From Candidatus Krumholzibacteriota bacterium (GTDB taxonomy: Bacteria; Krumholzibacteriota; Krumholzibacteriia; Krumholzibacteriales; WJIX01): a DNA stretch of 64,000 nucleotides. Both the position numbers and the translations under genes were made by a program. The stretch lies in contig JAXHNR010000001.1 of the NCBI GenBank assembly GCA_034520215.1, positions 124,001 through 188,000 of the forward strand, read 5' to 3'. The notes beneath the pieces are model-generated. The model was not told the DNA's origin. It ran no database searches and saw only the letters and a program-made list of their open reading frames with translations. Shown here piece after piece: positions 35,392-45,854 of this stretch. The first letter of the stretch is position 1. Each line of letters begins with the position of its first letter.

Positions 35392-37827
35392 TCATCTGAG
35401 CAGGATCATCTTCCTCGTCTCCGAGAAATCGTTCGCGGTTAGCTTGTAGAAATACACGCCGCTCGCTGCTATTGAGCCCGAGTCGTCGCGGCCGTCCCAA
35501 CTCTCCTCGTATGTGCCGGCCGGGAGGTCCCCGTCGAGCAGGGTTTTCACACGCCTGCCCGCGGCATCGTAGACAGCCAGCATCACGCGCGAGGGCTGCT
35601 TCAGACCGAAACTTATCGTCGTACGCGGGTTGAAGGGATTGGGGTAGTTCTGGCTGAGGTAGCTTGCCTCCGGCACAGGGAGCATATCGTCGCCGGTTAT
35701 TTCGGCCGGGCCGAGCAAGGCATACCCGCTCTCGTTACCGTGTATATCAACCGCGGAGAGCTTGTACCAGTAGCAGGTCTCCCACTCCCAGCCGCCGTCG
35801 AAGTATTCCGGGTCTGTCGGAGTGGCGATCATGTTGCCCGTGCCGGGGGTGAAGGTCTCTTCGGTCCCGCGGTAGACGGCGTAGTACCAGAGGTCGTTCT
35901 CCTCGTTCTCGTCCCAACTGAGCTGGAGCCCTTCGGGGCTCTGCGACTGTTCGCCCGACAGAGCCATTGGTGGGGTGGGCGAGTTGTTGTCGACCGAGTA
36001 CCCGCTGTCGGGCTCGCTCATGTACCAGATCGAGGGGATCGTCGTGTGGATGCTGATCAGGTATGCCGACCAAGGGATGCCGCCGGAGGTAGAATCGGCC
36101 AGCGTACCCGCGGCGTAGATGTACTCCGTCTCCTGGCAGGCGGCAAAGCTTCCGATGATCTCCCACGTGCCGGGCGGGAAGTCGGCGGCCTGCAGAAACT
36201 CCCGCGATACCTCGCCCTTTATAGGATCGTATGTCCCTTCTTCGATCGCCGAGAGAAGCACGGGGTCGTCCACACGCCTCCAGACGTTGTACGTCGACAC
36301 TGGATGGCTGTGCCATCCGGCGTCGTCCCACGTACTGCGTTCGATCGTGAGCCTCACAAGACCGCCCTCGTCACCGGGGATATCGGAGGCCGACAGTATA
36401 ATCGGCGGCAGGTACCCGACCCGCTCTTCGAAGTCGATCATCTGGGCATATATGTCCTCGTGCCCGCTGCGGAAATCCTCCCAGGCGACGATAGCGGGAC
36501 CGTCCTCGTCGCAGACTACCCGCGTCTCTAACTGATTTGCCGCCTCGACCGACAGATTGACACCGTCGGGTTCCCACAGCATGTTTCCCGAAGGATCTAT
36601 CCGCTGGGCGTATACTTCATCATCCGACCCGTTTCTATGGTCTCTCCAGGTAACTATCGCTCCACCGCTGCAATCCATGACTGCATGTACGTCTGTCTGA
36701 AATCCGGAGGCGCCGCATACCTGAACTCCGTGTGCGGTCCAGAGCACCGTCCCCGATCCGTCTATCCGCTGGGCGTAGATGTCGGTTCCATTACCGAGAT
36801 AATTTCGCCAATCGACCCATACCATGATAGCTCCCGAGGGATTAGCTGATTCATCCGGGATCAACTGCAAGGAGAGCTGGTCTTGCCCCGCCGCGCATAT
36901 CACGACCCCGTCGGTAGTCCATTGGGGATTTCCGGACTGGTCCACCCTCTGGGCGTATATATCGAGATCCGTACCGTCGCGGAAGTCCAGCCACGCGAAG
37001 ATCGCTCCCAGGGTTTTTCCATCAGACACCACCTTCGGTTCTGTCTGGTCTCCGGCAGCGGTGCACACGTCTATCCCGCCGCTCCACTCGACCGTACCCG
37101 TGGTATCGAAACTCTCGGCGAAGATGTCGACATCAGCATAGCGGTAGTCCTCGAACGCTATTATCGATTCGCCTCCCCCCCCGAAAGTTATATCCGAATT
37201 GAGATGATCCGAATAAAGGTTGACAACAAGCTTTCCACCGCCGGCCCAGAGTTGCCTCCCTGACGGGGTCAGGCGCTGCGCGTAGATAGCCCAGCCTGAC
37301 GATCGATTGTCGAACCAGGTGATGATTATCCTGTCGTATTGATTATAAAGAATCTGCGGTGTTACCTGATCACTCGAATAATCGCATAGTATCGTCTCAT
37401 TGTCTATGAGCAGGGGAGTTCCGGAGGAGGTCAGGATCTGGCAATATAAATCTGTTTCCTGTGAAAGATGATCCTCCCACGCCAGGACTACCGATCCACT
37501 AAATCCGATCGCCTCGATATCATGGTTCAGCTCGATCGATTCGTACGCGTACAAGGGATCGGAGACACGGATCCCGTCGACCGTCCATTGCGCGCTGCCG
37601 TATGAATCGATCCGCTGCGCGTAGATGTGCCAGTCCCCGTCCCTGTAATCCTCCCACGCGAGGACTGCGCCGTTCGCCCCGTCGGTTGTCATCCGTATTC
37701 TCGTTTGAAGGCTCGAATTTGTGCATACGGGCGTTCCCGACTCGATCCAGTCCGCGAGCAGCAGGGGAGCCCCTATGATCATAAGAGACAGAGCCGTCAG
37801 AAGAGATGTTTTCAGAAGTTTTATCAT
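35392..37827 (-). CDS. Secreted beta-propeller-like repeat protein with FlgD-like C-terminal domain
   Basis: 811 residues. The signal peptide (1-25) is followed by about eight repeats of some 55 residues (30-470), each with a core such as DIYAQRIDGSGTVLW, then GAIVAWEDYR-like strands, suggesting a beta-propeller. Next comes a region of beta sandwiches including a fibronectin III-like domain (about 630-710, GLQLSWDENEENDLWYYAVY). The FlgD-like Ig/sorting domain is at about 725-811 (SQNYPNPFNPRTTISF, GVYFYKLTANDFSETRKM). This tail directs secretion or surface attachment in FCB-group bacteria. The ligand is unknown. Confidence 0.85.
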   Translation of the reverse strand: MIKLLKTSLLTALSLMIIGAPLLLADWIESGTPVCTNSSLQTRIRMTTDGANGAVLAWEDYRDGDWHIYAQRIDSYGSAQWTVDGIRVSDPLYAYESIELNHDIEAIGFSGSVVLAWEDHLSQETDLYCQILTSSGTPLLIDNETILCDYSSDQVTPQILYNQYDRIIITWFDNRSSGWAIYAQRLTPSGRQLWAGGGKLVVNLYSDHLNSDITFGGGGESIIAFEDYRYADVDIFAESFDTTGTVEWSGGIDVCTAAGDQTEPKVVSDGKTLGAIFAWLDFRDGTDLDIYAQRVDQSGNPQWTTDGVVICAAGQDQLSLQLIPDESANPSGAIMVWVDWRNYLGNGTDIYAQRIDGSGTVLWTAHGVQVCGASGFQTDVHAVMDCSGGAIVTWRDHRNGSDDEVYAQRIDPSGNMLWEPDGVNLSVEAANQLETRVVCDEDGPAIVAWEDFRSGHEDIYAQMIDFEERVGYLPPIILSASDIPGDEGGLVRLTIERSTWDDAGWHSHPVSTYNVWRRVDDPVLLSAIEEGTYDPIKGEVSREFLQAADFPPGTWEIIGSFAACQETEYIYAAGTLADSTSGGIPWSAYLISIHTTIPSIWYMSEPDSGYSVDNNSPTPPMALSGEQSQSPEGLQLSWDENEENDLWYYAVYRGTEETFTPGTGNMIATPTDPEYFDGGWEWETCYWYKLSAVDIHGNESGYALLGPAEITGDDMLPVPEASYLSQNYPNPFNPRTTISFGLKQPSRVMLAVYDAAGRRVKTLLDGDLPAGTYEESWDGRDDSGSIAASGVYFYKLTANDFSETRKMILLR

Positions 37828-40447: not shown

Positions 40448-40493
40448 TTGACAAACTGGAAATCATTTTTTATTATGTGAGTGAGCGTTCACT
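40448..40493 (+). promoter_or_regulatory. Promoter and TetR-type operator of the export operon
   Basis: TTGACA (40448-40453), a 17-bp spacer and TATTAT (40471-40476). Immediately downstream is the inverted repeat AGTGA-GCGT-TCACT (40480-40493), in the form of TetR-family operators and placed to block transcription start. It lies 12 bp before the tetR start, so autoregulation is likely. Confidence 0.8.
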
Positions 40494-40505
40494 ATAGAAG
40501 AGATT

Positions 40506-41093
40506 ATGGAAACTTTTACCAAGAGACAACAGGAAATCATCAACGCCGCCATCAAGTTAATATCCGAAAAAGGGATTCAGCAATTAACAATCAAAAACCT
40601 TTCGGGAGAAATCGGTATTGCCGAGGGGGGTATATATCGTCATTTTAAAAGCAAAATTGATATTCTGTTGGCAATCCTGGTCAGTTTTGAAAACAGGATC
40701 GGAGCGGTCGCCAAAAAGCTGGAATCAACTGATAATAGCGATGCTCTCACCAAACTGGAAACTACTTTTGATGAGGCTTTTAAAAACTTTAAAGCCAATC
40801 CGGTCCTTGCGGCGGTTATTTTTTCCGAAGAAATATTTCAGAATGATAAGAGGCTGTCTAATAAGGTCTTTGGGATCATGAAACAGAACCAGGAAACAAT
40901 TCAGAGCATTATTAAATCCGGCCAGCAATCCCAATGTATTCGGTCCGATATCTCAAATATACAGCTTGCTCTAATTATCATGGGAGCACTGAGACTTATG
41001 GTTACTCAGTGGAGGCTCTCAGGATTTGCTTTCGACCTGGAATCTGAAGGCCGTCAACTCTGGAGCAGCATAAGAAGGATATTGGCTGATTAA
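40506..41093 (+). CDS. TetR/AcrR-family repressor
   Basis: 195 residues. The N-terminal helix-turn-helix (about 8-52: RQQEIINAAIKLISEKGIQQ, then IGIAEGGIYRHFKSK) is typical of TetR/AcrR repressors. The C-terminal ligand domain (60-190) is unassigned. It is first in an operon with an RND exporter, a LolA-like protein and an outer-membrane protein, with a palindromic operator next to the promoter. It probably represses the whole operon until a hydrophobic inducer binds. Confidence 0.92.
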   Translation: METFTKRQQEIINAAIKLISEKGIQQLTIKNLSGEIGIAEGGIYRHFKSKIDILLAILVSFENRIGAVAKKLESTDNSDALTKLETTFDEAFKNFKANPVLAAVIFSEEIFQNDKRLSNKVFGIMKQNQETIQSIIKSGQQSQCIRSDISNIQLALIIMGALRLMVTQWRLSGFAFDLESEGRQLWSSIRRILAD

Positions 41094-41125
41094 TTTCGAT
41101 AATTAATAATACGGGGGAAACACTT

Positions 41126-43414
41126 ATGAAATATGCGCTGAAATATCCGAAAATGGTACTGGCCATAAGCCTGTTGATAACGGCAGCCTTTTTTATTGTA
41201 ATGCGGCAAAACAGCCGGATGGAGACCGACCTTGATGACTATATGCCACAGAATCATCCCGATTTTGTTTACAGTAACAAGGCGGAAGAATGGTTTAATA
41301 TTAAAGACGGTATTATCATCGCAATTGAAAACAGAAATGGTATTTATAATACGTCAACTCTTGAGAAAGTGGAATCCCTGACGAAAAAATTGCAAGGCAT
41401 GGAAGAAATTGAAAAAGACGATGTAACTTCCCTTTATACTGCCGACAATATCATTGGGACTGACACGGGTTTGGACGTCAGTCCCTTTTACAGGAAAGTG
41501 CCTCAAAGCGAGGAAAAACTGACTGCCCTGAGAATCAACGTTCGCGACAATAAAATGGCCTACGAACGGATAGTGAGCAGCGACGAAACCGTGACTGTCA
41601 TAATCGCTGAAATAGGCGAAGATACCTTTTCGCAGGAATTTTATCGCCGACTGATAAATCTCGCTGAAGAGTACGAAGGTCCGGAAAAACTGTATGTGGC
41701 TGGCCGGCCTATTGTTGAAGGAACAATGGCTTATCTGGGGCCGCGGGACATGAAACGTATGGTGCCGATTGTCATTCTGGTAATAATTATTGTTTTACTG
41801 ATGGTACAGCGCAGCATAAAAGCAGCAATATTCACACTACTCGTTGTATTTTTCAGCGTGATCTGTGTTTTCGGGCTAATGGCTGCGGTAGGGGTCCCCA
41901 TTTACGCGGTATCCACAATGATACCGGTCATGTTGATTGCCATCGGGGTGGCAGATGGTATTCATTTATATAGTCATCTGCATATTTTTATGAAAGCTGA
42001 TCCACAAGCCGACACAAAAACGGCTGTGTCCGATATGCTCAATGAAATGTGGAAGCCGGTAGTAATGACCTCGGTGACAACAGCGGTTGGATTTATTTCA
42101 CTGTTAACCTCTGAAGTCTATCCCATCAAATATTTCGGTCTCTTCACTGCCTTTGGGGTCTTGGCCGCGATGGCATTTTCACTGTTTCTCATTCCGGCTG
42201 GTTTACTCACTTTTGGATTGCCCCGGTGGAAAAATAAAAATTCAAATACTCGAGAAAATGAAAATAGATTTCTGAATGCCATTGCCAGGTTGGTGATAAA
42301 ACATAAATACTTTACTCTGGTGTTGACAGCTTTGATTATAATAATTTCAATTTTCGGTATGACTAATGTCTGGATCAATTCCAGTTTTTTAGATAAATTC
42401 GAAGAAGACAGCGACATTGTAAGTACAGACGCTTTTATCAACAAACATTTTGGAGGTACTTCGACATTGAATGTGATCCTGGATTCCGAAAATCCGGATG
42501 CCTTCAAGAAGCCGCAGATTCTGAGAAAAATTGACAAACTGCAGACCGATGTGGAGAGTTCGCTGCAAGTGGTGGGAAGTTCCTTTGCCCTTACCGATTA
42601 CCTCGAGCGTATGAATAAAGTCATGCATGCCGACAGCGCCAAGTATGATGTTATTCCGGAAAGCAAGGAACTGGTAGCTCAGTATCTGCTATTGTACGAA
42701 ATGTCAGGAGATCCGGAGAATCTCTGGAAAGTAGTGGATTACAATTATCAGAAAGCCAATCTGACCTTTCAGCTGAAAAGCGACAATTCCATCGCCCTGA
42801 ACCGCGCTATTGACAAAATCGAAGAGTATAAGCCCGATTTGGAAAAATCAGGAGTTACTGTCAATTATGCCGGGTCCGGCTACAAAGCTCTGATTTTTAC
42901 CGACCTGATCCTTGAAGGACAGATAAAAAGCCTGATAATTTCACTGGCTATCGTAGTATTGCTGCTCTCTCTCATGTTTAAAAACGCGATGGCAGGCATT
43001 ATCGGCTCCGTACCGATTACGATCACCGCAGTGATAAGTTTCGGAGTGATGGGTTTGCTTAACATCCCATTAAGCACAACTACAGCTTTGCTTTCCAGTA
43101 TTGCCATCGGGATTGGGATAGATTACGCCGTTCATTTCATTGAGCGGTACAAAATCTACGCGGCTGAAACCGGTGATCCTCAGTTAACCGGCCATAAAAC
43201 CATGCAGCATTCCGGAAGGGCCATCGTATTTAATGCTTTAGTGGTAATCTCCGGATTCCTGGTTCTGCTGACTTCGGTATTTCCGCCAAACAGGGCGCTG
43301 GGAGCTCTCGTTTCCATGAATATGTTCACCAGCTTCCTGGGAACAGTAACTGTCATGTATCTTCTGCTGAGACTTTCAAATATTTTCTTCAAACAAAGAG
43401 AAAAGGAGTTGTAA
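41126..43414 (+). CDS. HAE3/MMPL-type RND exporter
   Basis: A 762-residue inner-membrane proton-driven exporter of the RND superfamily. It has two repeated halves: TM1 at about 11-28, a periplasmic domain (30-205), TM2-6 (210-350), a second TM near 390, a second periplasmic domain (410-600) and a last bundle (615-745). Paired motifs IGVADGIHLYSHL and IGIGIDYAVHFIERY carry the charged residues expected in the proton path. HAE3/MMPL members move lipids, hopanoids or other hydrophobic molecules. It lies 32 bp after tetR and 1 bp before the LolA-like gene. Confidence 0.92.
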   Translation: MKYALKYPKMVLAISLLITAAFFIVMRQNSRMETDLDDYMPQNHPDFVYSNKAEEWFNIKDGIIIAIENRNGIYNTSTLEKVESLTKKLQGMEEIEKDDVTSLYTADNIIGTDTGLDVSPFYRKVPQSEEKLTALRINVRDNKMAYERIVSSDETVTVIIAEIGEDTFSQEFYRRLINLAEEYEGPEKLYVAGRPIVEGTMAYLGPRDMKRMVPIVILVIIIVLLMVQRSIKAAIFTLLVVFFSVICVFGLMAAVGVPIYAVSTMIPVMLIAIGVADGIHLYSHLHIFMKADPQADTKTAVSDMLNEMWKPVVMTSVTTAVGFISLLTSEVYPIKYFGLFTAFGVLAAMAFSLFLIPAGLLTFGLPRWKNKNSNTRENENRFLNAIARLVIKHKYFTLVLTALIIIISIFGMTNVWINSSFLDKFEEDSDIVSTDAFINKHFGGTSTLNVILDSENPDAFKKPQILRKIDKLQTDVESSLQVVGSSFALTDYLERMNKVMHADSAKYDVIPESKELVAQYLLLYEMSGDPENLWKVVDYNYQKANLTFQLKSDNSIALNRAIDKIEEYKPDLEKSGVTVNYAGSGYKALIFTDLILEGQIKSLIISLAIVVLLLSLMFKNAMAGIIGSVPITITAVISFGVMGLLNIPLSTTTALLSSIAIGIGIDYAVHFIERYKIYAAETGDPQLTGHKTMQHSGRAIVFNALVVISGFLVLLTSVFPPNRALGALVSMNMFTSFLGTVTVMYLLLRLSNIFFKQREKEL

Positions 43415-43415
43415 A

Positions 43416-44204
43416 ATGAAATGCTGGAAAATCATTTTCAGTCTAATGATTGTTTCAATGTCTATTCCACTTCCGTCACTTGCCCTGGAGGATATAAGCG
43501 GACTGGAAATTATTCAGAATGTCTACACCCGCCCGACAGGCTCTGACCAGGAAGGCAAACTTACCATGACCCTGATTAATTCCCGCGGTGAAAAACGAAT
43601 GCGCGAAATCAAACAGTACATCAAAGATTTCGGCTCCGAAGAAAAGAAGATCATGTTTTTTATCTCTCCTGCAGATATTCGCAATACTTCCTTTATGAAC
43701 TGGAGTTATGATAAGGAGGGGCGGGATGATGACCAGTGGATCTATTTACCTGCCTTAAAAAGAGTAAAACGCATTTCCAGCGACAGCAAGAGTGACTATT
43801 TCATGGGTTCGGATTTCACATATGATGATCTGGGCGACCGGCACCCATCAGAAGATACGCATAAGCTGCTGCGGCAGGAAAAGGTCGACGGCGAAGACTG
43901 CTACGTCGTGGAAAGCATTCCCAAAGAAGAAGGATATATGTACTCCCGCACTCTTACCTGGGTCATCAAAGAAAAATGGGTCGGGTTGAAAAAGGAGTTT
44001 TATGACGAAGATGGCGAACACCTCAAGACACTGAGTGTAAAGAAGTATGAAAAAATCAAAGATTACTGGATCATTACAAACAGCCAGATGCAAAATGTTC
44101 AGAAAGATCATGTCACAAACATGTTGCTGGAAGATTTGAAAATTGACACCGGCCTTAAGGACAACTTGTTTACGGAACGTATGATGAGAAGGGGTATGTA
44201 TTGA
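43416..44204 (+). CDS. Outer-membrane lipoprotein-sorting (LolA-like) protein
   Basis: 262 residues with a signal peptide (about 1-23). The rest matches the LolA-like family (PF17131 type): MREIKQYIKDFGSEEKKI, DDQWIYLPALKRVKRISS, YFMGSDFTYDDL. The fold is an open half-barrel that holds acyl chains. Members often sit with RND exporters, so it likely carries a hydrophobic substrate through the periplasm between the exporter and the outer-membrane protein. GGAG lies before the ATG, and its last bases overlap the next start. Confidence 0.88.
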   Translation: MKCWKIIFSLMIVSMSIPLPSLALEDISGLEIIQNVYTRPTGSDQEGKLTMTLINSRGEKRMREIKQYIKDFGSEEKKIMFFISPADIRNTSFMNWSYDKEGRDDDQWIYLPALKRVKRISSDSKSDYFMGSDFTYDDLGDRHPSEDTHKLLRQEKVDGEDCYVVESIPKEEGYMYSRTLTWVIKEKWVGLKKEFYDEDGEHLKTLSVKKYEKIKDYWIITNSQMQNVQKDHVTNMLLEDLKIDTGLKDNLFTERMMRRGMY

Positions 44205-45472
44205 AGAATATTTGCAGAATGCAGACCATACTTTTCAGAAAGCTCAGATTTTTTCTGTTAATCGCGCTGGCTTTTTGCTTTTCAACCACCGCAATGGCAC
44301 AGGACCTGTTCATGAGCGGATATGTCCGGAATTACACAGGCGCTTTGATCAATGAAGGTGGTGAATATTCCATCATTCAGAATACATTCAATCTGAACCT
44401 GGAACACAGCAAGAGCAATGTTTCTTTTAAAGTAAATCCCTATATCTATCAATACAGTGAAAAAGAGCAGGAAACAGGGCTGCGCCAGGCGTACATGGAT
44501 ATCTATTTCAAATCTATCGACTTGCGTATAGGAAAACAGCAGATCATCTGGGGAAAAGCTGACGGAGTATTTATTACCGATATCATTTCTCCCAAGGACA
44601 TGAGCGAATTCCTGCTGCCGGACTTCGAAGAAATCAGAATGGGAGTTACGGCCGTGAAGGCCGATTATTATCGGGGAAACCAGACGTTTGAAGTGGTTTG
44701 GCTACCGGTTTTTACACCGACACGGCTGCCTGACGAATCTTCCATCTGGTCGCCGGAAATTCAATTTCCCATGACTCCTCAATTTGATTATTCTCAGCAG
44801 AAAGTGACCGGATCCCTGGAGAACAGCGAATGGTTTATCAAATATTCCGCACTCACTTCGGCCATCGATTATGAACTGATGGCCGGTTATGCCTGGGACG
44901 ACGATCCCACTATGCACATCGAAAAAGACATTGATCCTGAAACAATGCAGTTAACCGGCCTGACGGTGATTCCCCAGCATCACCGGCTGACCATTGCAGG
45001 CGGGAGTCTCAGCAGCACCCTGGGGCCGGTTGTTCTGCGCGGTGAAGGGGCTTTCTATTCGGGTAAATATTTTAACTCTGCTGATCCTGAAGCCAGCCGG
45101 GGCGTTGCGGAGAAAAATTATCTACATTACCTGGCGGGCCTTGATTACACTTTGATGGGTATCAATATCAGCGGCCAGTTCATTCAGGAGAGCATTCTGG
45201 ATTACGACCCCATGATTGGCCGGGATGAATTCGAAAATACGGTCACTTTATTGTTGCGCGAGGATTTTCTTCGTGAAACTCTGACTCTGGAGCTGTTTTA
45301 CTATATCGGGTTGAATAACAATGACGCCCTTATTCGTCCGAGCATCTATTATGATCTTTATGACGGGTTTGAACTTCTGGCGGGAGCCAATCTTTTCATC
45401 GGAGAAGAAGGTCGTTTCGGGCAGTACGATGAAAACGATATGGTTTACGCAAAATTAAAGTATAGTTTTTAA
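44201..45472 (+). CDS. Outer-membrane beta-barrel protein of the export operon (DUF1302-like)
   Basis: 423 residues. After a signal peptide (core FFLLIALAFCFSTTAMA) the chain is rich in alternating strands and ends in aromatic LKYSF. Motifs such as QAYMDIYFKSIDLRIGKQQI, IWGKADGVFITDIISPKDMS and ADYYRGNQTFEVVWLPVFTP resemble DUF1302-type outer-membrane proteins. The TTG start at 44201 overlaps the LolA-like stop and has AGAAGGGG upstream; ATG 44219 is an alternative. It probably provides the outer-membrane end of the export path. Confidence 0.75.
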   Translation: MKNICRMQTILFRKLRFFLLIALAFCFSTTAMAQDLFMSGYVRNYTGALINEGGEYSIIQNTFNLNLEHSKSNVSFKVNPYIYQYSEKEQETGLRQAYMDIYFKSIDLRIGKQQIIWGKADGVFITDIISPKDMSEFLLPDFEEIRMGVTAVKADYYRGNQTFEVVWLPVFTPTRLPDESSIWSPEIQFPMTPQFDYSQQKVTGSLENSEWFIKYSALTSAIDYELMAGYAWDDDPTMHIEKDIDPETMQLTGLTVIPQHHRLTIAGGSLSSTLGPVVLRGEGAFYSGKYFNSADPEASRGVAEKNYLHYLAGLDYTLMGINISGQFIQESILDYDPMIGRDEFENTVTLLLREDFLRETLTLELFYYIGLNNNDALIRPSIYYDLYDGFELLAGANLFIGEEGRFGQYDENDMVYAKLKYSF

Positions 45473-45854
45473 CCGGAGAATAGCGTTGGAAGAAAGCTCG
45501 ATTAAGGATTTATCTTTAACATAAAGAGATATTTTGTTCATGAAGAAACTCGCCGGATAATCAGACCTCCCAGAATAAGAATTATAAGAAATTGGGGTTT
45601 TTTCTGTCAAAGAGGGAAGTGCGGACAAGAGGGTTTGCAGATCTGATCAATAAATGAAAATTGCTAAATCCAGGCAAGCCCTATTTTATAAAGGAAGTAT
45701 CTCAGAACCAAAATTGAAAAGAATGTGTTCTTTTATGGTTGGAGAATCTTAAGCGTGAGATTGGCGAACAATTTGATCGGAGCATTCCGGTATTTGTAAC
45801 AGCTCGCAATAAAAATCGGCATCCGATTCCTCTTTAATAATAAGTTAAAACTGA
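45473..45854. other. Intergenic, no gene recognised
   Basis: Mixed composition with short frames only. ATG 45540 gives six codons (MKKLAG). No hairpin with a T tract after the export operon was identified. Confidence 0.3.

Follow-up and report, generated by a model that had tools for sequence, protein, structure and literature searches.

A conserved four-gene operon for probable envelope transport, with a FadR-like repressor and a candidate self-regulatory operator, in Candidatus Krumholzibacteriota and other bacteria

Introduction

What does a bacterium move across its envelope when a repressor, a membrane pump, a periplasmic carrier and an outer-membrane barrel are encoded side by side, and do such genes act as one unit? 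We addressed these questions for a locus of a Candidatus Krumholzibacteriota bacterium (GenBank assembly GCA_034520215.1), found in a stretch of 64,000 nucleotides (contig JAXHNR010000001.1, positions 124,001 to 188,000 of the forward strand), hereafter the window. The cassette at positions 40448-45472 encodes, head to tail, a TetR-family repressor, an RND transporter, a LolA-like carrier and a DUF1302 barrel; we call the last three the triad. An initial annotation, made from the DNA letters and a list of open reading frames (ORFs), had described the cassette as a self-contained export line. We find that the four genes are one conserved operon, on a stronger case than that annotation claimed. 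The features are as follows.

40448-40476, + strand: sigma-70-type promoter, TTGACA-17-TATTAT, 11/12 consensus matches
40477-40496, + strand: operator palindrome GTGAGTGAGCGTTCACTATA, abutting the -10 element shortly 5' of the tetR ATG, with a footprint in relatives
40506-41093, + strand: TetR-family repressor gene, 195 amino acids (aa) (ORF list, profile and structure comparisons)
41126-43414, + strand: MMPL/HAE3-like RND transporter gene, 762 aa (ORF list, Pfam/NCBIfam)
43416-44204, + strand: LolA-like carrier gene (PF17131), 262 aa, signal-peptide-like N-terminus (ORF list, Pfam)
44201-45472, + strand: DUF1302 outer-membrane barrel gene, 423 aa, TTG start (ORF list, Pfam, AlphaFold2 (AF2) model)

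Results

Conservation of the operon

The ORF analysis gives junctions of 32 bp, 1 bp and a 4-nt overlap, in which the TTG start of the barrel gene sits within the stop of the LolA-like gene. The contiguity and spacing described by the initial annotation are therefore those of the ORF coordinates, and its promoter with operator at the repressor gene was also recovered: the promoter is near consensus and the palindrome directly follows its -10 element. The genome (2.6 Mb in 2 contigs, 97% complete) encodes a single PF17131 gene, that of the cassette. Its product was matched in 24 of the 58 genomes searched, its own included. We examined 20 stretches around the matches in other genomes. The 16 with E < 1e-28 (L032-L047) have a barrel in every case and an RND gene beside or fused to the LolA-like gene in 15; L047 starts at a contig end. 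A relative of the same genus (L032) has all four genes. More distant relatives have ArsR-like regulators with a rhodanese-like part (L034, L046), sigma-factor-like ones (L042, L043) or other TetRs (L033, L044); the TetRs were scanned for families and the other names were read from sequence without such a scan. Since the regulators differ beside a kept triad, we take the triad to be the wider unit and the regulator to be exchangeable.

A wider scan of named genomes with an alignment of LolA-like proteins gave at least 591 stretches (at least 590 relatives). The best 80 (loci L087-L166) come from Cloacimonadota, Bacteroidota, Spirochaetota, Aminicenantes, WOR-3, Neomarinimicrobiota, Delongbacteria, Melioribacteraceae, and others. 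They were split into clade A, which is that of the window (68 loci), and clade B (12 loci, hand-assigned from scores, of which 7 are in the RND tree). The arrangement within clade A is nearly invariant. The RND gene is upstream in all 65 evaluable loci (3 are at contig edges) and the barrel gene downstream in all 64 (4 at edges), spaced in 61 and overlapping as in the window in L094, L096, and L100. A homologous TetR gene lies upstream in 46 of 47 (18 at edges, 3 without the RND gene on the contig), the exception being L115, which has a different TetR there. The co-occurrence of the four families is thus borne out, and the synteny of the barrel rules out that it is an unrelated or stray porin.

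In a quick tree of the RND proteins, from which P. gingivalis is absent, the nearest row to the window is a metagenome-assembled genome of Cloacimonadota (L087, 80% identical), and the Phocaeicola/Prevotella rows form a separate clade of 7 on a long branch (SH-aLRT, an approximate likelihood-ratio support, of 100). Among the clade-B Bacteroidota (L160-L164, L169), an ABC pair is annotated immediately 5' of the RND gene in L169, L162 has two ORFs of similar size, and long ORFs near L160 and L164 resemble TonB receptors by eye. Outside these loci, weakly LolA-like homologues are encoded next to ORFs of about 425, 395, and 240 aa in L048 and L051, which may be an ABC-driven form of the carrier system.

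The operator and its repressor

Comparison of 46 regions 5' of tetR (45 relatives and the window) shows a recurrent palindrome, GTKAGTGA-N3-TTMACTMAC. Scores of at least 14/17 are reached in 36 of these 46 regions, compared with 0.16% of 9,200 mononucleotide shuffles, a test that is partly circular because the consensus was derived from the same regions. A consensus-light test, based on symmetry and an AGT core, reached its maximum in 16 of the 46 regions and in 0.4% of 2,760 same-locus segments. The window operator scores 9 in this test, as do or better 39% of the control segments, because the right half of its palindrome is degenerate. A strict 20-mer has 29 matches in 831,876 bases (2.0 expected after shuffling), of which 19 are at 11-81 bp before tetR, 10 are in the tetR-RND gap, and none is elsewhere. 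The 10 gap sites and the site of L098 played no part in deriving the consensus. Together, the scores, the consensus-light test and this placement rule out a chance palindrome. In the window, the strict right half is unmatched and there is no second operator site. Among same-genus genomes, G001 and G002 (80-84% complete) gave no operator match, and the contig of G003 ends inside tetR.

By manual count, a sigma-70-type promoter (TTGACW...TA...T) ends at most 7 bases from the operator in 22 of the 46 upstream regions, window included, and in 9 of 15 Bacteroidota upstream regions the operator coincides with or adjoins a TAnnTTTG box, which we take to be the Bacteroidota -7 element. Within the window genome, AGTGANNNNTCACT is present at two places, the second inside a coding ORF. 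The strict operator precedes no other gene there, so that the cassette is self-contained as to its regulator, as initially described. With the looser pattern TGARTGA-N4-TCAYTCA, at no more than 2 mismatches, uniqueness is lost: 31 places of the genome match, versus 14 for a backwards control.

Further evidence comes from the recognition helix. Position 41 of the window TetR, in the motif GGIYRHF, covaries with base 3 of the operator: loci with G or A at this base mostly have residue G or S, and those with T mostly have residue P or A. The half-sites split 59 vs 9 for P/A and 2 vs 18 for G/S (44 loci; Fisher p = 3e-10, which is too small because kinship was ignored). Five Bacteroidota loci have P at residue 41 and G at base 3 in one half-site. 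In our motif-based alignment, this residue, three positions before a conserved Tyr, corresponds to Gly48 of FadRSa, a residue that makes contact with the N7 of a guanine and is required for binding (PMC6449355). As judged from these sequence comparisons, the operator is very probably bound by the cassette's own TetR. The comparative evidence supports a scheme in which this protein represses itself and the transporter through a palindrome over its own promoter, with a further site before the RND gene in some relatives.

The repressor has the domains TetR_N (47.3 bits, gathering threshold 24) and TetR_C_4 (46.9 bits, threshold 21), the latter being the C-terminal domain of FadR/YsiA-like regulators. 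Its best NCBIfam model is FadR (87.2 bits), with AcrR-type efflux repressors among the next best, and its best PDB sequence matches are the FadR proteins of B. halodurans and B. subtilis, some of which bear the plain title 'transcriptional regulator' in the sequence comparison and the name FadR in the structural one. When its AF2 model (mean pLDDT, the confidence score of the model, 89.8) was compared using Foldseek, the first eleven rows by E-value were FadR chains, counting 1vi0, titled only 'transcriptional regulator'. In clade A, TetR_C_4 is matched by 43 of 45 TetRs and the FadR model by all 45 at 1e-5, as is the SlmA model. No recognised C-terminal domain was found in the four clade-B TetRs scanned (L169, L164, L157, L158) or in the TetR of L115. 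By sequence and predicted fold, the repressor is thus FadR-like, at a score below the FadR equivalog cut-off.

The transport proteins

The transporter matches the MMPL family (PF03176, 150.3 bits). The initial label of HAE3-type RND stands in so far as TIGR00921 is the best NCBIfam model, and falls short in that its 233.6 bits are below the curated cut-off of 351.9. The best PDB sequence match is the siderophore exporter MmpL4 (42.8 bits). Asp666, in the motif GIDYAVH, is invariant in 58 of 58 aligned RND proteins. The nearby position 277, in the other, N-terminal half, is split between D (32 proteins) and Y (26 proteins); from MmpL3, we presume both to be proton-relay positions.

The other two family labels were upheld. 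The LolA-like protein scores 220.3 bits against PF17131 (LolA_like, gathering threshold 30) and also matches DUF1329 (48.5 bits). Its N-terminus looks by eye like a signal peptide without a lipobox Cys, and we read the protein as soluble and periplasmic. Its solved relatives (9tp6, 3bk5, 4z48, 3buu) have no stated function. In L038 (5953-9237), a single ORF of 1094 aa fuses the RND (58-807) and LolA-like (870-1086) parts, which suggests direct hand-over. A similar fusion in L037 was ruled out, as it resolves into two separate frames. The barrel matches DUF1302 (PF06980) with 36.5 bits against a cut-off of 23.2, with partial coverage (138-422 of 541 profile positions). Its AF2 model (pLDDT 92.3) has 20 strands and by VIA-align matches the OprD/Occ channels OccK/OccD and MOMP (Z of about 22) and AlgE (about 21), tied or nearly so, at 8-15% identity. 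No FadL-like fold is among the 50 structure matches listed.

Genes near the cassette

The gene clusters found in or near the relatives' cassettes, named from the Pfam result for one member each, include a 300-aa protein (11 loci), cupin (9), DUF2147 (8), and DUF3943 (7). A phospholipase A1 (PLA1) gene directly follows the barrel gene in L115 (Pfam, 4.9e-32), and L152 has a close relative of it. In the 300-aa family, from Bacteroidota and Melioribacteraceae, the motif HHSNGQ and an Asn downstream of it are both invariant, and in our view they resemble the triad of outer-membrane phospholipase A. Three of six members have sub-threshold PLA1 matches (best 2.3e-5), and a seventh, in L127, has none. 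A census of 137 neighbours, without a matched control, includes 6 PLA1, 2 patatins, and 10 cupins. The genome of the window encodes four acyl-CoA dehydrogenases, and its FadL-family matches are all sub-threshold. The FadR-like repressor and the PLA1-like genes of some relatives point to acyl lipids, so that the cargo, given as unknown by the initial annotation, can be narrowed in this direction. Its statement that no biosynthetic gene is adjacent is consistent with the downstream neighbours identified by Pfam, a universal stress protein and a radical SAM protein (the window genes were scanned in part).

Some observations concern other surrounding genes. A gene family near the cassette in L150, L151, L154, L155, and L164 includes a Prismane/hybrid-cluster-type protein (L155), accompanied in L155 by genes that are Rrf2-like and cupin-like by eye. 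In the window, a perfect sigma-70 promoter (TTGACA-18-TATAAT, 12/12) is found just 3' of the barrel gene, at 45581-45610 on the - strand, antisense into the operon. Further upstream, 35392-37827 (- strand) encodes a secreted-looking protein of 811 aa, with a C-terminal segment that resembles by eye the sorting domains of the Fibrobacteres-Chlorobi-Bacteroidetes group.

Discussion

Relation to known systems

The transport triad is already known. AmeABCD of Castellaniella defragrans encodes together a DUF1302 outer-membrane protein, a LolA-superfamily (DUF1329) periplasmic protein and a HAE3 RND transporter. It differs from our cassette by a fourth part, AmeC (COG4447), and by its location in a monoterpene-degradation island (PMC6394551), whereas the cassette has a dedicated FadR-like repressor. 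We found no AmeC-like gene in the cassette: 40448-45472 holds no further non-overlapping + strand ORF of at least 80 aa. In P. putida, a DUF1302 barrel (PP_0765) and a DUF1329 protein (PP_0766) are tied by phenotype and co-folding to the efflux transporter PP_2019 and the periplasmic PP_2018; these are in two separate loci, and the Tween 20 account describes no FadR-like repressor (PMC10866462). The operons of P. gingivalis (PG1178-PG1181) and Prevotella combine TetR and MMPL genes with one for an outer membrane lipoprotein-sorting protein and a fourth gene, and are iron/hemin regulated (PMC10434189, PMC10470040). The product of the fourth gene is annotated as DUF1302 in P. nigrescens (NZ_CP082843). 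The Phocaeicola/Prevotella rows also differ from the cassette by their distinct RND clade and, in Prevotella, an inserted ABC pair, and the four clade-B TetRs scanned lack TetR_C_4.

On the regulatory side, FarR/FarE of Staphylococcus aureus similarly pairs a TetR regulator with an RND pump for fatty acids and responds to linoleic acid, but in a monoderm, with divergent genes, without carrier or barrel, and with FarR also required for farE expression (PMC10019231). By sequence and predicted fold, the Bacillus FadR (PDB 3whc, 5gp9) shares its TetR subfamily with the cassette repressor; it governs beta-oxidation, and the cassette TetR scores below the FadR equivalog cut-off. We found no description of a FadR-type TetR with the triad, or of its operator, in the open-licence literature as judged from titles and the openings of abstracts, which is weak evidence of absence.

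What the operon may carry

Our preferred reading, tentative and at nearly even chances, is that the cassette forms a trans-envelope line for lipids that responds to an acyl signal. A long-chain acyl-CoA or a related acyl signal would enter the FadR-like pocket and release the repressor. Powered by protons by way of Asp666, the RND pump would then lift an acyl lipid such as a fatty acid or a lysolipid from the inner membrane, the soluble LolA-like protein would ferry it over the periplasm, and the DUF1302 barrel would admit it into or through the outer membrane. The line might dispose of excess or damaging acyl chains, as a diderm counterpart of FarR/FarE. In its favour are the synteny and the operator of clade A, the FadR kinship of the repressor, the PLA1 genes beside some cassettes, the four acyl-CoA dehydrogenases of the window genome, the invariance of Asp666, and the precedents of AmeABCD with its monoterpene tolerance and of FarR/FarE. 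Several results weigh against this reading. The score of the repressor is well under the cut-off of 200 of the FadR equivalog (NF053878), and SlmA chains have TM-scores equal to or above those of the FadR chains for its model. The relatives at order and class level that pair the triad with other regulators imply that the triad does not generally go with an acyl signal. In its fold, the barrel is similar to substrate-specific porins and to AlgE, with no feature specific to lipids. Only 13 of the 80 loci, a minority, have PLA1-like genes, the PF02253 phospholipase is absent from the window genome, and a profile-profile comparison of the 300-aa family with two bona fide PLA1 proteins gave nothing (Prob 1.1). 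Finally, the requirement of the P. putida relatives for growth on Tween 20 fits uptake (PMC10866462).

This last point belongs to an alternative that we consider unlikely, in which the barrel and the LolA-like protein import fatty acids or hydrophobic nutrients, the RND protein recycles or hands over the cargo, and the FadR-like repressor ties the line to lipid catabolism. All four P. putida genes (PP_0765, PP_0766, PP_2018, PP_2019) are needed on Tween 20 (PMC10866462), and FadR-type TetRs control degradation in B. subtilis and Sulfolobus (PMC6449355). The window genome, with its acyl-CoA dehydrogenases and only sub-threshold FadL-family matches, is also in line with uptake. Against it, the characterised MMPL-type RND proteins (MmpL3, HpnN) move lipids outward. 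The deletion of AmeABCD, moreover, increases dye accumulation (PMC6394551). On balance, export seems appreciably more probable than uptake.

Export could also concern other molecules. A general efflux of toxic hydrophobes (solvents, terpenes, hydrocarbons), with a TetR that senses a xenobiotic instead of acyl-CoA, strikes us as quite unlikely. It draws on AmeABCD, whose same three transport parts raise monoterpene tolerance and lower the accumulation of Nile Red (PMC6394551), and on the AcrR-type repressors among the next-best models of the TetR, but FadR is the best model by sequence and by Foldseek E-value, relatives have phospholipase neighbours, and AmeC has no counterpart here. A transporter for iron or heme stress, like PG1178-81, is very improbable. 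The genes for the TetR, lipoprotein-sorting, hypothetical and MMPL proteins top a P-value-ordered table of the strongest expression under hemin limitation (PMC10470040), PG1175-81 is strongly iron-regulated (PMC10434189), and MmpL4, the best PDB match of our RND protein, exports siderophores. Yet the Phocaeicola/Prevotella relatives branch apart in their own clade, the clade-B TetRs scanned lack the FadR-like domain, the P. nigrescens cassette is accompanied by an ABC pair, and the 25 families most often found beside clade A include no ABC pairs and no TonB receptors.

Implications

RND-LolA-DUF1302 systems recur across bacteria, and a single conserved repressor-operator pair within a clade offers a handle on what they move: ligand screening can find the inducer, which should in turn indicate the cargo. 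Should this be an acyl lipid, the operon would provide a two-membrane route for fatty acids or lipids in which a soluble carrier replaces a periplasm-spanning adaptor. It is rather doubtful, yet conceivable, that the clade as a whole represents a phylum-spanning, acyl-CoA-switched lipid line of diderms, made of a FadR-like repressor, a proton-driven RND pump, a soluble carrier and a porin-fold gate, with an outer-membrane phospholipase added in some lineages. Such a line would cut, collect, and move fatty acids or lysolipids between the membranes, outside Mla, Lpt, and Lol.

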